This document shows positions 36,044-42,843 of a stretch of DNA of 64,000 nt, in pieces. Below the pieces are notes generated by a model, which was given only the letters and a program-made list of their open reading frames with translations, was not told the DNA's origin and ran no database searches. Numbering within the stretch: position 1 is the stretch's first letter; every line of letters begins with the position of its first letter. Source of the stretch: Thalassomonas actiniarum (GTDB taxonomy: Bacteria; Pseudomonadota; Gammaproteobacteria; Enterobacterales; Alteromonadaceae); assembly GCF_000948975.2 (NCBI RefSeq), contig NZ_CP059735.1, forward strand, positions 5,826,603 to 5,890,602, given 5' to 3'. A program made the translations under genes and the position numbers.

Positions 36044-37189
36044 CTATGCCTTAACATGACCATCAACGCAGCTATCAACAAAGTCTTGCAAGAGAGCTAA
36101 AGCCCCGGGAAAGTCCAGCTGTCCAAGACCAAGGCGAAAACATTCTCCCTCCAGCCCGAACAGGTTCGCCGGTAATAACAAAAGCTTATGCTTACGGGCG
36201 AGATCCGGCCCCCAATCTTTGATTGGCCTTTTTAAATGAGATTTCACTAAGGTCATAATGCCCGCCTGAGGCGGCTGCCATGAAAACAACCCGGCATTGC
36301 TATCGACAAAACGCTGAAAATGTCTGATGTTATCACTGATGATATGGTTATTTCGCGTCAGGATATTATCGCTATGTTGCAGCGCCATCACTGCCAGCTG
36401 TTCATCCACGGCCGAGGTACAAATTGAGCCATAGGCTTTCACCGACAGTAATTGAGCCAATAAGTTTTTATCCGGTGACAGCACCCAGCCGATACGTAGC
36501 CCGGCCAGGCCGAAGCTTTTCGACATCACGCCAACCACCAGGCTTTTTTCATAACTGAGATAATCATGAGCCAACGACAGGTCATCATAGTTGCTCGCCT
36601 GGGTGACATCATCGGCTAACAGATAGCAATGATGCTTTTTCGCCAGAACCAGTACCTGTTTTGCCGCTTCACTGTCGATAATGCTGCCGGTAGGGTTATG
36701 GGGGGAGTTAATGACGATCAACCTGGTATTATCATTCACCTTAGCCGCCAGCTGCTCCATGTCCATACGCCAGCTATCCGCCTCTTGCAGGGGGATGGCA
36801 TTGACCTTCACTCCCATAGCCTGCGCCATAGTCACCAGGGAAGGATAATTGGGCGTAAAGACAACTATCTCATCTCCCGGCGATAGCAGGCTTGTATAAA
36901 TCGCCGCCAGCGCCTCCTGCGCCCCGCAAAAGGTCAGCACATTATCTTGATCAAATGGATAACTTTTCCGGTTAAGGGTCTGATGGAAGTGGACAATCTC
37001 CTGCCTTAACGCTACCGACCCCGACAGGGGGGCATAAGTTAAAGACAACTCCGCCAGGTTTTTATCCGCCAGTTGGCACAGCTCGGCTACCGTCAGCGCC
37101 TGGGCGCAGGAGTTGCTGAGGTTAAAGGTGATCTCGGTATTAAGGCCCTGGCTATAGGCAATATGCGCCGGTAATGTTAATGCTTTCAT
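36044..37189 (-). CDS. ovoB: OvoB-type PLP-dependent sulfoxide lyase (aminotransferase fold I)
   Basis: 381 residues from ATG 37189, with GGGGAG just upstream; a TTG nine codons earlier is less likely. Fold-type I aminotransferase class I/II protein: AQEALAAIYTSLLSPGDEIV, INSPHNPTGSI and the PLP lysine Lys224 in MSKSFGLAGLRIGW. By itself this is a generic class I/II signature. The assignment rests on position: it follows ovoA by 42 bases, and OvoB, which cleaves the histidyl-cysteine sulfoxide to 5-thiohistidine, is a PLP enzyme of this fold. A true aminotransferase remains possible. Confidence 0.72.
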   Translation of the reverse strand: MKALTLPAHIAYSQGLNTEITFNLSNSCAQALTVAELCQLADKNLAELSLTYAPLSGSVALRQEIVHFHQTLNRKSYPFDQDNVLTFCGAQEALAAIYTSLLSPGDEIVVFTPNYPSLVTMAQAMGVKVNAIPLQEADSWRMDMEQLAAKVNDNTRLIVINSPHNPTGSIIDSEAAKQVLVLAKKHHCYLLADDVTQASNYDDLSLAHDYLSYEKSLVVGVMSKSFGLAGLRIGWVLSPDKNLLAQLLSVKAYGSICTSAVDEQLAVMALQHSDNILTRNNHIISDNIRHFQRFVDSNAGLFSWQPPQAGIMTLVKSHLKRPIKDWGPDLARKHKLLLLPANLFGLEGECFRLGLGQLDFPGALALLQDFVDSCVDGHVKA

Positions 37190-37231
37190 ATTACTCCCCC
37201 AGGCACAAACCTGCACACTTGAAAGAGCGAC

Positions 37232-39355
37232 TTAGTCATTTTTCAGCTGCCACACCGTCAGTTGCTGTTCGCTCACCTGGTAATTACGCCGGTTGGCTTT
37301 CAGCACCCGGGTGATCTCCTGCTGTTCAAGCAAATTAAAATGTCCTGCCAAATATTGCCGTAAACCGTCAAAGCCGGTGACATTCTCACCGTTGACCTTA
37401 ATGCCCCCCAGCCATTTACTTTTTTCAGTGATCTGCTCGCTAAAGCCATAATCGGAAACCAGCACCAACAAACCGCCGGCTTTCAGCCTTTGCCTGATAG
37501 TGGCCAAAAATAGCCGCGGGTCATAACTTAACTCCAGCACCTGCTGTGCCAGGATAACATCATAATCGCTAAATATAGCCTTAAGATTGGCGGCATCTCC
37601 CTGGCAAAAATTGATTTTATCCCGACCCTGTTCCAGTCCTAAACCCGTTAAGTTGATCTCCTTAAAGTCGACGATATCCCCTTCATTTTCACAGGTATAA
37701 CGGACACTGTTCCCCTGCTGTAGCCTGACGCCATGCTGAATATAGCGGGCAGAGAAATCTACGGCATCGATATGGCCAAAATCCGGCGCCAATTCAAAAG
37801 CACAGCGACCGACGCTACAGCCAAGATCCAACATTTTTCCCCTGGAGATGGCATATTTATCCGTAAGAGCAATCAGCTTTTGCGCCAACTGCTGTGCATA
37901 ATTCCCCAGGTTTAAACCGGGCTCGCCATAATGATTTTCCAGCTGCCGGCAGATCTCCCGGCTGGTTTCATAATGATTAACCGCAATTGCCGGTATTTCC
38001 TCAAACTCGCTGTGGATGTAACGGAAACCGGCATGCTGAAAAAAATGCCGCCGAAAAGCATAACGGGAAGATTTACAGGCTTCATTACCGGTAGAAATCC
38101 AGGAGCCCCCCTTGATCAGGTTATGCTTGCCGTCAAAGGTCGGGGTGGAGAAATCATCATATAGGGGATGTACTTCAAAGCCGTTAAAACCGTCGATAGC
38201 CGATTCCGTCCACTGCCAGACATTGCCGGTAATATCAAACAGGCCATCGGTTTCAAAGCGGTTTACCGGGCAGGAGGAGGCAAAATACTGCAAGTTGATA
38301 TTGCCGGGGGCTTCCTGCCAGTCGACTAAATCAGTGGGGATCTTATCCCGCAAACAGTACCACTCGGCTTCCGTCGGCAAACGGATATAACCGCTGCTTT
38401 GCCCGGATTTCCAGCGGCAAAAGGCATGGGCTTCAAGGTAATTCACTTCCACCGGCCAATCCAGCGGCAAAGGCATTTCTGATAGCAGGTTGCGCTGGAA
38501 GTAGCTTTCTCCCTTTTTCAGCCAGAAACGCGGCATGCTTGCCCGGGTAAAAGCCAGCCATTGCTGCCCTTCTTCATTCCAGTATGCGGGGTTATCATAT
38601 CCCCCCGCCTCGACAAAGCCTAAAAACTCCTGATTCGACACCAGGTACCTGGAGGCCTGAAAATCCCTGACCTCAAGCTCTGCCTGCCCGTATTCGTTAT
38701 CCCAGCCATACGTGTGATCGCTATCGGCCTTGCCTAAATGAACCGTTTTCCCAGTTACCGCCACTAAAGTATTTTGCGGGGCATCGCCGCTGTAGGGACA
38801 AGCCTGCCACTGCTCGCTCGGGGTCAGGTACTGCAGCGGCAACATCCGCATGATCACCGAGGAAGTTTCAATATGAATACGCTCATGCTCACAGCCCATC
38901 AGGATCACCCAGGCGAGGGAGTCTTTTGTTATCGGCAAACTTAATTCCATGGTATCGATCAGCTGCTCGACCAAAGCCTTTACCTGCTTGCGATAAGCAG
39001 TCACTTCATTGACCGCCGGCCAGTCGTAATGGCTGCTGTCGAGATCGTCCCAGCTCATTTCATCGACACCGACGGCGCAGATGGCTTCCAGTTTTTCATT
39101 GATGCGTTTATCCAGGTATTTGCCCAGGATAAATTTATTGATGTAAAAAGTGGCGGTATGGCCAAAATAAAAAATCAGCGGATGGCGTAATTTTTCCGGA
39201 CGCAGATAAAACGCCTCGGGATCCTTGATCAGGGAAAATAACGAATCATAGCTGTCCCAGCTATTTTGAAAATACGCCTTCAATTCGGCTCTTTTCTGCT
39301 TGGCACATGTCCCCGTCAATAACGGAGGTGTCATTTGTTGTTTCGTGATATTCAT
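37232..39355 (-). CDS. ovoA: 5-histidylcysteine sulfoxide synthase / thiohistidine methyltransferase OvoA
   Basis: About 707 residues from ATG 39355 (TTG 20 codons upstream and an internal ATG are alternatives; no start has a strong ribosome site). The N-terminal DinB-like domain has the iron motif HERIHIE (His157, His161, Glu163). The formylglycine-generating-enzyme-like domain has AHAFCRWKSGQSSGYIRLPT and DITGNVWQWTES. The C-terminal methyltransferase has the SAM site KMLDLGCSVGRCAFEL near residue 511. OvoA joins cysteine to histidine C5 with oxygen, and its C-terminal domain methylates the imidazole after OvoB acts. All three domains are intact. Confidence 0.95.
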   Translation of the reverse strand: MNITKQQMTPPLLTGTCAKQKRAELKAYFQNSWDSYDSLFSLIKDPEAFYLRPEKLRHPLIFYFGHTATFYINKFILGKYLDKRINEKLEAICAVGVDEMSWDDLDSSHYDWPAVNEVTAYRKQVKALVEQLIDTMELSLPITKDSLAWVILMGCEHERIHIETSSVIMRMLPLQYLTPSEQWQACPYSGDAPQNTLVAVTGKTVHLGKADSDHTYGWDNEYGQAELEVRDFQASRYLVSNQEFLGFVEAGGYDNPAYWNEEGQQWLAFTRASMPRFWLKKGESYFQRNLLSEMPLPLDWPVEVNYLEAHAFCRWKSGQSSGYIRLPTEAEWYCLRDKIPTDLVDWQEAPGNINLQYFASSCPVNRFETDGLFDITGNVWQWTESAIDGFNGFEVHPLYDDFSTPTFDGKHNLIKGGSWISTGNEACKSSRYAFRRHFFQHAGFRYIHSEFEEIPAIAVNHYETSREICRQLENHYGEPGLNLGNYAQQLAQKLIALTDKYAISRGKMLDLGCSVGRCAFELAPDFGHIDAVDFSARYIQHGVRLQQGNSVRYTCENEGDIVDFKEINLTGLGLEQGRDKINFCQGDAANLKAIFSDYDVILAQQVLELSYDPRLFLATIRQRLKAGGLLVLVSDYGFSEQITEKSKWLGGIKVNGENVTGFDGLRQYLAGHFNLLEQQEITRVLKANRRNYQVSEQQLTVWQLKND

Positions 39356-39439
39356 TGGCCAGGTATTCACCTTGTTATTTTTGTCTTTTATTGCCGGCAC
39401 GTCATTTGCCGGCAAACCCGCTGATTATTTGCTATTGCT

Positions 39440-40576
39440 CTAATAAAACGTTTTTTGCTGATATTTAGCTAAGACACTGCTTTTTAATTTATCTCCTAAT
39501 TTCCCTGAGTTTTCAACAGATAAATCAGCCATATCTTTTGCGGTTTGCATATTAAGCTGTACCGCATTAATCCGCTCGCTAAACCACTGCTGGCGGGCAA
39601 ACAAGCTGACGGCATCAAAGCCATCCTTATCATGATTAAGGGCTCCGGGCAGGCTGACAGGGGCAGGCGGCGCTTTTAAACCGGCCTGACAGCCCTTGTG
39701 GTTATAAACCTCCAAGGCATCGACTAAGTTCACCAGGGCAAAAACAACATTCAGGTAGGGATTGTAATGCTTGCTCGAAGCCCCCAGCCGGTGCTCGATA
39801 CGGGCGGTTTTTTGCCAGTTTTTCCTGCTGAGCAATACCTGATTGGCGGCATCATATAATAACGGCTCAACTCCCATATCCTGGTTATGTTTGCCGTATT
39901 CTTTATACAAAGCGATGCTGCCCTGATGGCCGCCGGAAATATCCACCGGCGAGCAAAGTTCTTTTGCCAGGCCGTAACGGCTTTTCAAAAGCAGGCGCTC
40001 AAAGGCATCTTCTTCCGGCAGATAAAGCAGACAGCAAGCTAGACTGGTTTGCAGAAAACACTGCTGCAGGTATTCGCCAAAACCATGTTTGGCAATAATA
40101 TTTTCACCCGAGCCATTGCTGGCGCTGATATTGATTTGCACCGCATTGGGAATATGCACCGCCCGGGCCTCGCCGGAAAAAATATTGCTGCAGCCCAGGG
40201 CAAGCTGCCCCTTGTCTCCGCACCAGACCACAGGTGTGATCAGGGTTTGTACTACTCCCTGCTGTGCGAATAAATAAGGTAATTTCTCCAGTGCAAACGC
40301 CAGGTTATCGGCTTCCTTCAACGGCGTCTGGCCATTAAAAACAGAGACGTACTCCCACTGATGAGACCAGTATTCCGGCACCAGTTCAGCGTCGATGCCA
40401 AGGGAGCCCAATTGCCGGTTAAGCAGGGCAAAGTCCAGTTCCTGGTTTGCCCGGCAAGGAGGAAAGCGATAGCAGCCTTCCAGCTCGAAATGTACCGCAG
40501 GGCTATAACCCAACTTATGGATATAAGACTCAAGTAAGCCTATCACCTGCCGTGCCAGGGCGCTGGTATCATCCAT
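39440..40576 (-). CDS. Glutamine-synthetase-fold ligase without N-terminal beta-grasp domain
   Basis: 378 residues from ATG 40576 (GTG 40588 is an alternative; neither has a clear ribosome site). The C-terminal region ARIEHRLGASSKHYNPYLN is the GS landmark with Glu261 and Arg263, and HFELEGCYRF gives the early E-x-E pair (Glu31, Glu33). VPEYWSHQWEY matches the second pair of metal glutamates. The GS H-x-H loop reads VQINISASNGSG, lacking the histidine. The usual N-terminal beta-grasp domain is absent. It is likely an ATP-dependent carboxylate-amine ligase, not true glutamine synthetase. It sits 84 bases before ovoA in the same direction, so an ovothiol-related ligation is inferred; no such step is described. 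Confidence 0.7.
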   Translation of the reverse strand: MDDTSALARQVIGLLESYIHKLGYSPAVHFELEGCYRFPPCRANQELDFALLNRQLGSLGIDAELVPEYWSHQWEYVSVFNGQTPLKEADNLAFALEKLPYLFAQQGVVQTLITPVVWCGDKGQLALGCSNIFSGEARAVHIPNAVQINISASNGSGENIIAKHGFGEYLQQCFLQTSLACCLLYLPEEDAFERLLLKSRYGLAKELCSPVDISGGHQGSIALYKEYGKHNQDMGVEPLLYDAANQVLLSRKNWQKTARIEHRLGASSKHYNPYLNVVFALVNLVDALEVYNHKGCQAGLKAPPAPVSLPGALNHDKDGFDAVSLFARQQWFSERINAVQLNMQTAKDMADLSVENSGKLGDKLKSSVLAKYQQKTFY

Positions 40577-40626
40577 AGGGCGATTCACAGATTTGCCATC
40601 GCTATTTTGACCATCACAAAAGCCGG

Positions 40627-42522
40627 TTATGCCATTTCCGGCTGATAGACCACGGCGCTGTGTGCGCCCTGCTCTTTGGCCCGGTAAAGCGCCAAGTCCG
40701 CCTGCTCATACAAACTGACACTGTCGCTGCACTGGGGAGAAAGGCTGGCAATGCCTATGCTGACGCTGACAGAAAAGCGTTTTTTATTTTCCACTTCAAA
40801 AATATAGTCATTAATACTGGCGGCTAACCTTTGGGCAACTTGGCGGCATTGCTCCGGGCTTATCCGCGGCAGGACACAAAGAAATTCTTCGCCGCTGATA
40901 CGGCCCATCACATCTCCCTGGCGCAACACCTTTTGTCCGGCTTGTGCCACCCGGCAAATCACCTGGTCACCGGCAAGATGGCCAAAATTATCATTGATGT
41001 GCTTAAAATTATCGATATCGAGCAAGATCACCGACAACTCGCCTTTTTCCGGCACGGTACCCTCGGTATACTTTTTAAGATAATTGAAAACATAACGGCG
41101 GTTATATGCCTTAGATAAGGGGTCCAGGGTCGATAACTCGAGAATTTTATCGTTATATTTACGCTGGTACAGCATCACCACTAAAAAGAAAATCGACAAA
41201 CTTACTGCAAACAACAAAAAGTACTTTTGTTGCCTGTCTTCCAGCTCATAATGCTCCTTCCTGAGCTCGGTTAATTCCTGCTGCTTTTGCCCCAAAGAGA
41301 CTTCCCGCTCTTTGTGGCTCTGTTCCATGTTTAAGCGCACTTTTTCCAGGCGACTGTCGGCATTTTTACGCTGCAGCTCAGCATATTGCTCGAGGTAGCG
41401 CTCTAACACCTGATAAGCCCGGCCATTCTCTCCCCGGGCATACGCCAGCTCTGCGTTGAGTTTTTCAACTTCCAGTTGCCATTTTGTGCCTTTAAGCTCG
41501 GGGATTTCGGCAAAAATAGCCCCGGCAGCCGACAAGGCCTGCTGTGCCCCGGCAAAATCCCCCTTATCCATCAAACAAGCCCCCTTGCGCTTTAACAGTT
41601 CGGCTTTATAGTCTGCCAGGGCATTGATCAATAACGCTTCATCGATAATAGCGATGCCCCGTGCACACTGCCCCTGCTCTGCCAGGGTCATGCCCAGGCC
41701 ATATACGGCAAAAAAAGCGACTTCCCGGTTTGGGGTGTAATCAATCAGGGTACGGTAACGTTCAAAGGTCGTGATGGCCAACTGATATTTTTGCCAATAA
41801 CGGTAGATGGTGGCCAGCGCATAGACGGCATCGGCAATATGCGCCCGGTAACTGAGCTGTTCGTAGCTCGCCAGCGCCTTTTGATAATATTCCACCGATT
41901 TTTCATATTCGCCGAGATAACCATAAATGGCGCCATAGGTTTCATTCACCCGCGCCAGTAAAAATTTATCCCCGAGGGCAAAAGCTTCGACATAGGTTTC
42001 CTGAAGTTCCTTGAGGGAGGTTTGATATAATTCCGTCAGGCTGCGGGTATAGGCAAGCTCCTGTTTACCGACGATATAGATATGATTGAGATTGGCCTGC
42101 TCGGCCAGGGTCAGCGCCTGTTGAAAGAAATCAACCGCCTGACTATAAAGCCCTTTTTGCTGGGCCAGCACACCGGCATAAACATTAAAACCGCCGGATA
42201 TTTCCGCCGGGGTCTGCGCCGTGATCAGCTGCTGCGCCTGTTTTACCGTCACTTCGAGATCGGCATTTAAATATAATAATAACTCGGCCTGCGCCTTACG
42301 CAGCAACAGCCATAACTTTTCGTTATCCGGCCATTGCCCGGCTTCTTGCTCCAGGGCCTGCAGACGCCGGTAACTCAACCAGGGCTCGCGGTTGACCTCT
42401 TCAAACATCCCCTGTAACGACGAGATATCATCCCTGTCTTGCGCCAGAGCAACAGGGACGGCAATGGCCGAAAACAGGAACAAAAAAATCCCGGTGATGA
42501 TATATTTGAGGGTTAACTGCAT
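40627..42522 (-). CDS. TPR-GGDEF membrane diguanylate cyclase
   Basis: 631 residues. Signal peptide at residues 1-27 (ending PVALAQD), a periplasmic TPR region to about residue 420 including ETYGAIYGYLGEYEKSVEYY, one transmembrane helix (KYFLLFAVSLSIFFLVVMLY) and a GGDEF domain. The catalytic loop reads SGEEF near residue 543, with Ser replacing the first Gly, a change tolerated in some active cyclases. An RQGD I-site is five residues upstream. It may make c-di-GMP in response to a periplasmic signal. It is the second gene of the minus-strand run that leads into the ovothiol genes. Confidence 0.9.
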   Translation of the reverse strand: MQLTLKYIITGIFLFLFSAIAVPVALAQDRDDISSLQGMFEEVNREPWLSYRRLQALEQEAGQWPDNEKLWLLLRKAQAELLLYLNADLEVTVKQAQQLITAQTPAEISGGFNVYAGVLAQQKGLYSQAVDFFQQALTLAEQANLNHIYIVGKQELAYTRSLTELYQTSLKELQETYVEAFALGDKFLLARVNETYGAIYGYLGEYEKSVEYYQKALASYEQLSYRAHIADAVYALATIYRYWQKYQLAITTFERYRTLIDYTPNREVAFFAVYGLGMTLAEQGQCARGIAIIDEALLINALADYKAELLKRKGACLMDKGDFAGAQQALSAAGAIFAEIPELKGTKWQLEVEKLNAELAYARGENGRAYQVLERYLEQYAELQRKNADSRLEKVRLNMEQSHKEREVSLGQKQQELTELRKEHYELEDRQQKYFLLFAVSLSIFFLVVMLYQRKYNDKILELSTLDPLSKAYNRRYVFNYLKKYTEGTVPEKGELSVILLDIDNFKHINDNFGHLAGDQVICRVAQAGQKVLRQGDVMGRISGEEFLCVLPRISPEQCRQVAQRLAASINDYIFEVENKKRFSVSVSIGIASLSPQCSDSVSLYEQADLALYRAKEQGAHSAVVYQPEMA

Positions 42523-42615: not shown

Positions 42616-42843
42616 TTAGCCTTTAAACAATTGATTAAATTTCTTCACCGAAAAGCCATTTAAAATTTGATCGCCGATTTTTAATACCGGCACCGCCCGC
42701 ATGCCTAAAGCCGCCAACTCTTTTTGTCCCTGCGGCGTTTTCACATTACACAGCCGGTATTTGATCCCCTGCTGGTCCAGGTAACGCTTGGCGGTATCGC
42801 AATGGGGACATTTGCTCATACTGTATAAAACAACTCTTTTCAT
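42616..42843 (-). CDS. Glutaredoxin-like protein (NrdH/GrxC type)
   Basis: 75 residues, one thioredoxin-fold domain with the dithiol CPHC (residues 12-15), cis-Pro in MRAVPVLKIGDQ and ILNGFSVKKF. It is small like NrdH and short glutaredoxins. It would reduce disulfides or mixed disulfides in the cytoplasm. It heads the minus-strand run that includes the diguanylate cyclase, GS-fold ligase and ovothiol genes; a link to thiol metabolism is tempting but unproven. Upstream is the terminator of the RND operon. Confidence 0.85.
   Translation of the reverse strand: MKRVVLYSMSKCPHCDTAKRYLDQQGIKYRLCNVKTPQGQKELAALGMRAVPVLKIGDQILNGFSVKKFNQLFKG

Follow-up and report, generated by a model that had tools for sequence, protein, structure and literature searches.

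The 64,000-nucleotide stretch of Thalassomonas actiniarum DNA analysed here (the window) carries a glutamine-synthetase-like gene directly beside ovoA, which we named GSx. The computations established that its product has the glutamine synthetase (GS) catalytic fold, that GSx and ovoA form a strict gene pair with a single origin, that change in the partner OvoA is confined to the methyltransferase domain, and that purifying selection acts on the changed sequence. GSx represents an undescribed GS-fold family in a variant of the ovothiol pathway of some marine bacteria. Together with the rebuilt methyltransferase half of the neighbouring OvoA, it suggests that these bacteria form a modified sulfur-histidine compound instead of ordinary ovothiol. 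We lean towards the reading that GSx is an ATP-dependent carboxylate-amine ligase working in one pathway with an OvoA whose methyltransferase domain acts on the conjugate.

The genes of the run all lie on the minus strand. The first in transcription order encodes a glutaredoxin-like protein of 75 aa with a CPHC motif (42616..42843) and is followed by the gene for a TPR-GGDEF protein (40627..42522), which stands directly upstream of GSx (39440..40588). The 382-aa GSx protein consists of a GS-fold catalytic domain without the beta-grasp domain and is a proposed ATP-dependent amide ligase. The ovoA gene (37232..39415) encodes a sulfoxide synthase fused to a SAM methyltransferase, 727 aa long from a TTG start, with matches to TIGR04344, TIGR04345 and the solved structure 8khq. 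The last gene (36044..37216) encodes an OvoB-type PLP enzyme of the fold-type I aminotransferase/lyase group. The window genome is near Thalassomonas sp. RHCl1, with GSx 93% and OvoA 96% identical. In the window, the TPR-GGDEF protein has SGEEF in place of GGDEF, and a c-di-GMP link to the pathway is possible.

A GTDB scan queried with GSx returned 16 loci, and eight further distinct loci brought the total to 24; in every one of them GSx stood immediately 5' of ovoA, both genes being on one strand. Because the 16 GTDB loci had been found by GSx itself, the order sample of 394 genomes provides the fair count. It contained 9 genomes with GSx and 69 with OvoA, 60 of the latter being without GSx. 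All nine GSx genes, from 4 families and 8 genera, were directly upstream of ovoA. None of the samples searched contained a GSx apart from ovoA. The earlier note had named such a separation as evidence against the pathway link that it proposed between the two genes; with 9/9 genes in the order sample and 24/24 loci overall, that link is strongly supported. The phylum sample yielded GSx in 5 of 398 genomes and the class sample in 2 of 369, in both cases from the window's own family only, and no GSx from outside the order appeared in either sample. The class sample also gave a weak match, the genome's own PuuA-like gene (E 0.036), and the plasmid search gave no match to GSx. The genes flanking the pair differed between groups of the 24 loci. 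Two Psychromonas-type genomes carry second, degenerate GSx fragments just upstream of the intact gene (G207:C159:16786-17093, locus L064, and G110:C1:3182872-3183027, loci L030-L032), one of them with internal stops, as would be seen after tandem duplication.

The history of the pair was read from an OvoA tree of 84 rows, comprising 69 order-sample and 15 GTDB-scan sequences (row L064 was left out as the same record as L019). The 24 GSx-linked OvoAs made up one side of a single branch (SH-aLRT 99), the other 60 being without GSx, and none of 500 label shuffles on this tree was as clustered. A 35-row OvoA tree gave the same grouping with a bootstrap of 100, and OvoAs without GSx from the window's own family were placed elsewhere in the tree. 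The GSx-ovoA pair thus has one common origin. In the same genus as genomes G110 and G207, one OvoA without GSx (L071; G247:C1, 6889-9032) is split into two overlapping frames of 521 and 195 aa, the longer of which groups with ordinary OvoAs.

Profile homology and the structure model both assigned GSx to the glutamine synthetase superfamily by its catalytic fold. The best profile match was the PuuA-type set (3.2e-7). In the profile alignment, GSx begins at GS profile column 111, and the N-terminal beta-grasp domain is absent. None of the 24 GSx members matched the curated PF00120 model at E<=0.1, and a PDB sequence search with GSx alone or with a 17-row profile returned no GS among its matches. 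The top hits of the PDB search, Rex and methylaspartase, reached E values of only 0.94 and 0.11 and were dismissed as chance. GshA and GCS2 were not supported as closer relatives, their hhalign values (0.41 and 0.30) being at the level of unrelated controls (0.25-0.63), and a closer relationship to the GSII profile was unsupported, with a GSII set of two rows only. In the structure model, residues 123-142 and 211-223, which may form the flap, fell below pLDDT 50. A PuuA-like GS of the window genome (L003, G000:C1:6080920-6081552) aligns with the GS model over the model's first two thirds only and continues in frame into aldehyde-dehydrogenase-like sequence.

Active-site residues were compared using the roles given for the metal, substrate and ammonia sites of Salmonella GS in the available part of PMC6529630. 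In the alignment, the minus-strand motif HFELEG (40475..40492) places E35 and E37 at the metal glutamates E129/E131, and EYWSHQWE (40352..40375) places E72 and E79 at E212/E220. RIEHR (39788..39802) aligns R263, E265 and R267 with R355/E357/R359. Each of these GSx residues, together with H266, is invariant in the 24 members, so that five of the six GS metal ligands are retained (E35, E37, E72, E79 and E265). The aligned equivalents of R321 and R359, R198 and R267, are also invariant in all 24. At 40130..40138, Q151-I-N153 replaces H269-x-H271, with the Q and the N invariant in the family: the metal-ligand histidine H269 has become Q, and the ATP-phosphate histidine H271 has become N. ATP chemistry is for this reason not assured in GSx. 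The change of H271 to N is not unusual, since the GSII-type and GshA sequences compared also have H-x-N in place of H-x-H; judged from the aligned sequences, Q at the position of H269 is the unusual one of the two loop changes. The features that the earlier note had read from this gene, namely its place directly before ovoA, the missing beta-grasp domain, the Q-I-N loop and the kept metal glutamates, were all confirmed.

The two GS ammonia residues, D50 and E327, are both absent from GSx by alignment: the domain of D50 is missing, and the window protein has no Glu at the place of E327, six residues beyond R198. PauA7 and GlnA4, whose substrates are organic amines, do not conserve D50 and E327 either, according to the part of PMC6529630 available. 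Their absence, as in these two enzymes, points to a GSx acceptor that would be larger than ammonia.

The window OvoA is full length, with the OvoA structure 8khq as its best solved match (E 7e-230) and a score of 676 bits for its sulfoxide-synthase domain against TIGR04344. The 24 GSx-linked OvoAs were compared with 59 others (the 521-aa piece of the split OvoA L071 was dropped), counting a position as near-invariant when at least 97% of the 59 shared the same residue and as changed when that residue was lost in at least half of the GSx clade. None of 118 near-invariant positions had changed in the sulfoxide-synthase domain (38015..39325, minus strand) vs 25 of 70 in the methyltransferase domain (37247..37972, minus strand; Fisher 7.4e-13), and five other OvoA clades given the same test showed no methyltransferase excess (Fisher 0.2 to 1). 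The 25 positions gather, all on the minus strand, at Y491 and F494 in the Y-x-x-F site of ordinary OvoA (residues 491-494, 37934..37945; Y491 is Q in 21 of 24), at the NLIDR site (625-629, 37529..37543), at the PYTWL site (655-659, 37439..37453) and at the FVIRETxRKFQH site (703-714, 37274..37309). The motifs are largely retained in solved OvoA (8khq), OvoM (9bxl) and OvsM (9bxh), with the single exceptions of L659, which is R in OvoM, and W658, which is L in OvsM. In what we take to be the class I methyltransferase topology, they come after strands 4 and 5 and the strands of the C-terminus, where substrates presumably bind; this topology and the conservation in OvoM and OvsM would place the changed motifs in the substrate pocket.

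Members of the GSx clade thus have the sulfoxide-synthase residues of OvoA and lack its shared C-terminal methyltransferase motifs. All 24 rebuilt domains nevertheless scored 230-294 bits against TIGR04345 (ovoA_Cterm), above the cut-off of 170, so annotation cannot separate them from ordinary methyltransferases. The two earliest-branching rows of the clade retain the old state at 11 and 6 of the 25 positions, and the rest at 1 to 5, as if the change had continued after the pair was formed.

The rebuilt methyltransferase domains showed no sign of decay. All 24 are open reading frames, and the SAM-site residues (G532, G536, D553 and GDxxNLK) are kept. The dN/dS of the domain was 0.07-0.15 (NG86) or 0.08-0.25 (YN00) in the 5 of 7 GSx-containing pairs for which it could be computed, values read without a usable baseline, as three pairs lacking GSx gave one methyltransferase value. 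The same pair set gave 0.08-0.15 (NG86) for GSx, where one value (L006/L009) was computed with an ORF of 421 aa whose start had been extended. These low ratios indicate that the GSx-linked methyltransferase is under purifying selection. The domain evolves faster in OvoAs with GSx: at a sulfoxide-synthase identity of 0.7-0.8, mean methyltransferase identity was 0.50 in 85 pairs with GSx vs 0.75 in 227 pairs without it. Each of the 24 genomes with GSx, some of them incomplete, contains exactly one methyltransferase of the ovoA_Cterm type; hence the search gave no stand-alone OvoM by which ovothiol A might still be produced.

Distances between GSx proteins correlated with those of the methyltransferase domain at r 0.82 and with those of the sulfoxide-synthase domain at r 0.64 (partial values 0.68 and 0.11). 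With speed-matched sulfoxide-synthase columns, the partial value was 0.76 (permutation p 0.0003). We gave this correlation little weight because the difference depends on three long branches, the removal of which left plain correlations of 0.76 (methyltransferase) and 0.71 (sulfoxide-synthase). Coupled change of GSx and the methyltransferase is therefore weakly supported.

The OvoB-type PLP enzyme adjoins the pair at 15 of the 24 GSx loci. PF00155 matched it, and no OvoB model was among the best 25 of 117 NCBIfam matches. The nine genomes without an adjacent PLP gene contained no close copy elsewhere (five had no match at E<=1e-20 and four had only 25-28% identical ones), so that another lyase would have to serve there. 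A distant relative of the window PLP enzyme (33%), located in the same genome (G000:C1:4721486-4722565, L188), has an in-frame TGA. Of the 24 loci, 15 have the TPR-GGDEF gene directly upstream of GSx and 7 have the glutaredoxin gene; both were set aside as pathway parts because they are not core. The glutaredoxin-like gene does head the gene run in the window, as had been described earlier, but it does not belong to a conserved core.

If GSx is a ligase, the steps would run as follows. The OvoA sulfoxide-synthase domain would join histidine and cysteine as usual, and a PLP lyase, probably the adjacent OvoB-type enzyme where present, would release 5-thiohistidine. GSx would then use ATP to make an amide on 5-thiohistidine; the simplest guess, by analogy with PuuA-type enzymes, is a gamma-glutamyl transfer to the alpha-amine. 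The remodelled OvoA methyltransferase would act on this conjugate and not on free 5-thiohistidine. The earlier note had proposed that GSx attaches an amino acid or amine to 5-thiohistidine or ovothiol; the best fit is a ligase with 5-thiohistidine or a nearby product as its substrate, since the partner OvoA has changed in its methyltransferase domain only, and both the conjugate and its donor are putative.

Several other explanations were weighed against this one. The second suggestion of the earlier note was that GSx supplies a conjugated substrate, such as gamma-glutamyl-cysteine or a conjugated histidine, to the sulfoxide synthase. The mycobacterial EgtA-EgtB couple is a real precedent for a ligase feeding a sulfoxide synthase, as described in the part of PMC9103826 available, and GSx does stand directly before ovoA. 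Precursor conjugation is nevertheless disfavoured because the sulfoxide-synthase domain is untouched (0/118 vs 25/70 positions changed); GSx also lacks profile similarity to GshA and GCS2, and the window genome has its own GshA, so that we regard this course as improbable. Loss of ligase activity is another thought: GSx could now serve OvoA as a GS-fold partner or regulator, perhaps as a binding subunit standing in for part of the altered methyltransferase pocket. The two substitutions in the catalytic loop, the missing beta-grasp domain and distances that follow the methyltransferase domain would agree with such a role. It is hard to explain without catalysis, however, why the metal glutamates and the equivalents of the substrate arginines are invariant in all 24 members, and the occurrence of H-x-N in GSII-type and GshA proteins means that the second loop change alone does not imply lost activity; a non-catalytic GSx seems unlikely.

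A methyltransferase whose pocket has drifted but which goes on making ovothiol A, GSx acting on ovothiol A or a metabolite derived from it, would be in keeping with the ovoA_Cterm scores and the retained SAM-site residues. Yet the 59 other OvoAs are near-invariant at the lost motifs, which OvoM and OvsM also largely retain, dN/dS shows present constraint, and none of the five control clades changed in this manner, which makes continued ovothiol A synthesis an improbable account as well. Least credible, and in our view very improbable, is a coincidence in one small lineage, with GSx serving an unrelated reaction. GSx is rare, as the phylum and class samples show, and a single origin means few independent events; but the pair stays together across 4 families while its flanking genes change, and GSx did not occur without ovoA in these samples. 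The ligase reading has difficulties of its own in the small lineage, where the gene pairing and the methyltransferase change could each be a single event, occurring together but causally unrelated, and in the missing PLP enzyme beside the pair at 9 of 24 loci.

Among known enzymes, the gamma-glutamyl organic amide synthetases PuuA, PauA7 (4HPP), GlnA3, GlnA4, NpaA1 and GmaS share the GS catalytic fold with GSx, and their metal glutamates and two substrate arginines align with it. PauA7 and GlnA4 resemble GSx further in the absence of D50 and E327 of ordinary GS, as far as the part of PMC6529630 available describes them. Unlike the PuuA-type enzymes, GSx occurs only beside ovoA, is not matched by any GS family model, lacks the beta-grasp domain and carries Q-x-N at the site of H-x-H. 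To our knowledge, the known ovothiol route has no ligase. The sulfoxide-synthase domain is the same as in the known OvoA/OvoB route (Erwinia tasmaniensis; OvoA structure 8khq), with all 118 near-invariant positions kept, and the GSx loci resemble ordinary ovothiol loci in having a SAM methyltransferase fused to OvoA and, often, an OvoB-type PLP enzyme adjacent. They differ from ordinary OvoA and from the stand-alone OvoM (9bxl) in the lost methyltransferase motifs and the added ligase. The EgtA-EgtB system of mycobacterial ergothioneine synthesis also combines a ligase with an EgtB/OvoA-type sulfoxide synthase, as proposed for GSx, but EgtA is a gamma-glutamylcysteine ligase and acts before the sulfoxide synthase.

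The closest parallel in approach is 5THNAT, which was likewise found through its place beside ovoA and modifies the alpha-amine of 5-thiohistidine, the target that we propose for GSx; it has a GNAT fold, uses acetyl-CoA and occurs mostly in Bacteroidota, whereas GSx has a GS fold, is presumably ATP-dependent and occurs in marine gammaproteobacteria. The part of PMC12631010 available describes 5THNAT in these terms, presents it as the sole known enzyme other than OvoA with a 5-thiohistidine as substrate, and takes the complex 5-thiohistidine compounds of marine origin as a hint that further conjugating enzymes await discovery. No description of a GS-like partner gene of ovoA was found in the titles and abstracts searched, which cover the literature in part. 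The locus is a concrete candidate for such a conjugating enzyme and has an internal control, the sulfoxide chemistry being untouched and the methyltransferase rebuilt. As a tentative proposal, marine Colwelliaceae, Psychromonas and relatives may make a new low-molecular-weight thiol instead of ovothiol A, an amide conjugate such as gamma-glutamyl-5-thiohistidine, with methylation at a new site or of the conjugate; in that case no ATP-dependent ligase for 5-thiohistidine would have been known before GSx, and the OvoA methyltransferase would have been retargeted in genes that databases label as ordinary ovothiol synthesis. Where a genome is annotated as an ovothiol producer on the strength of ovoA alone, its product may be something else.
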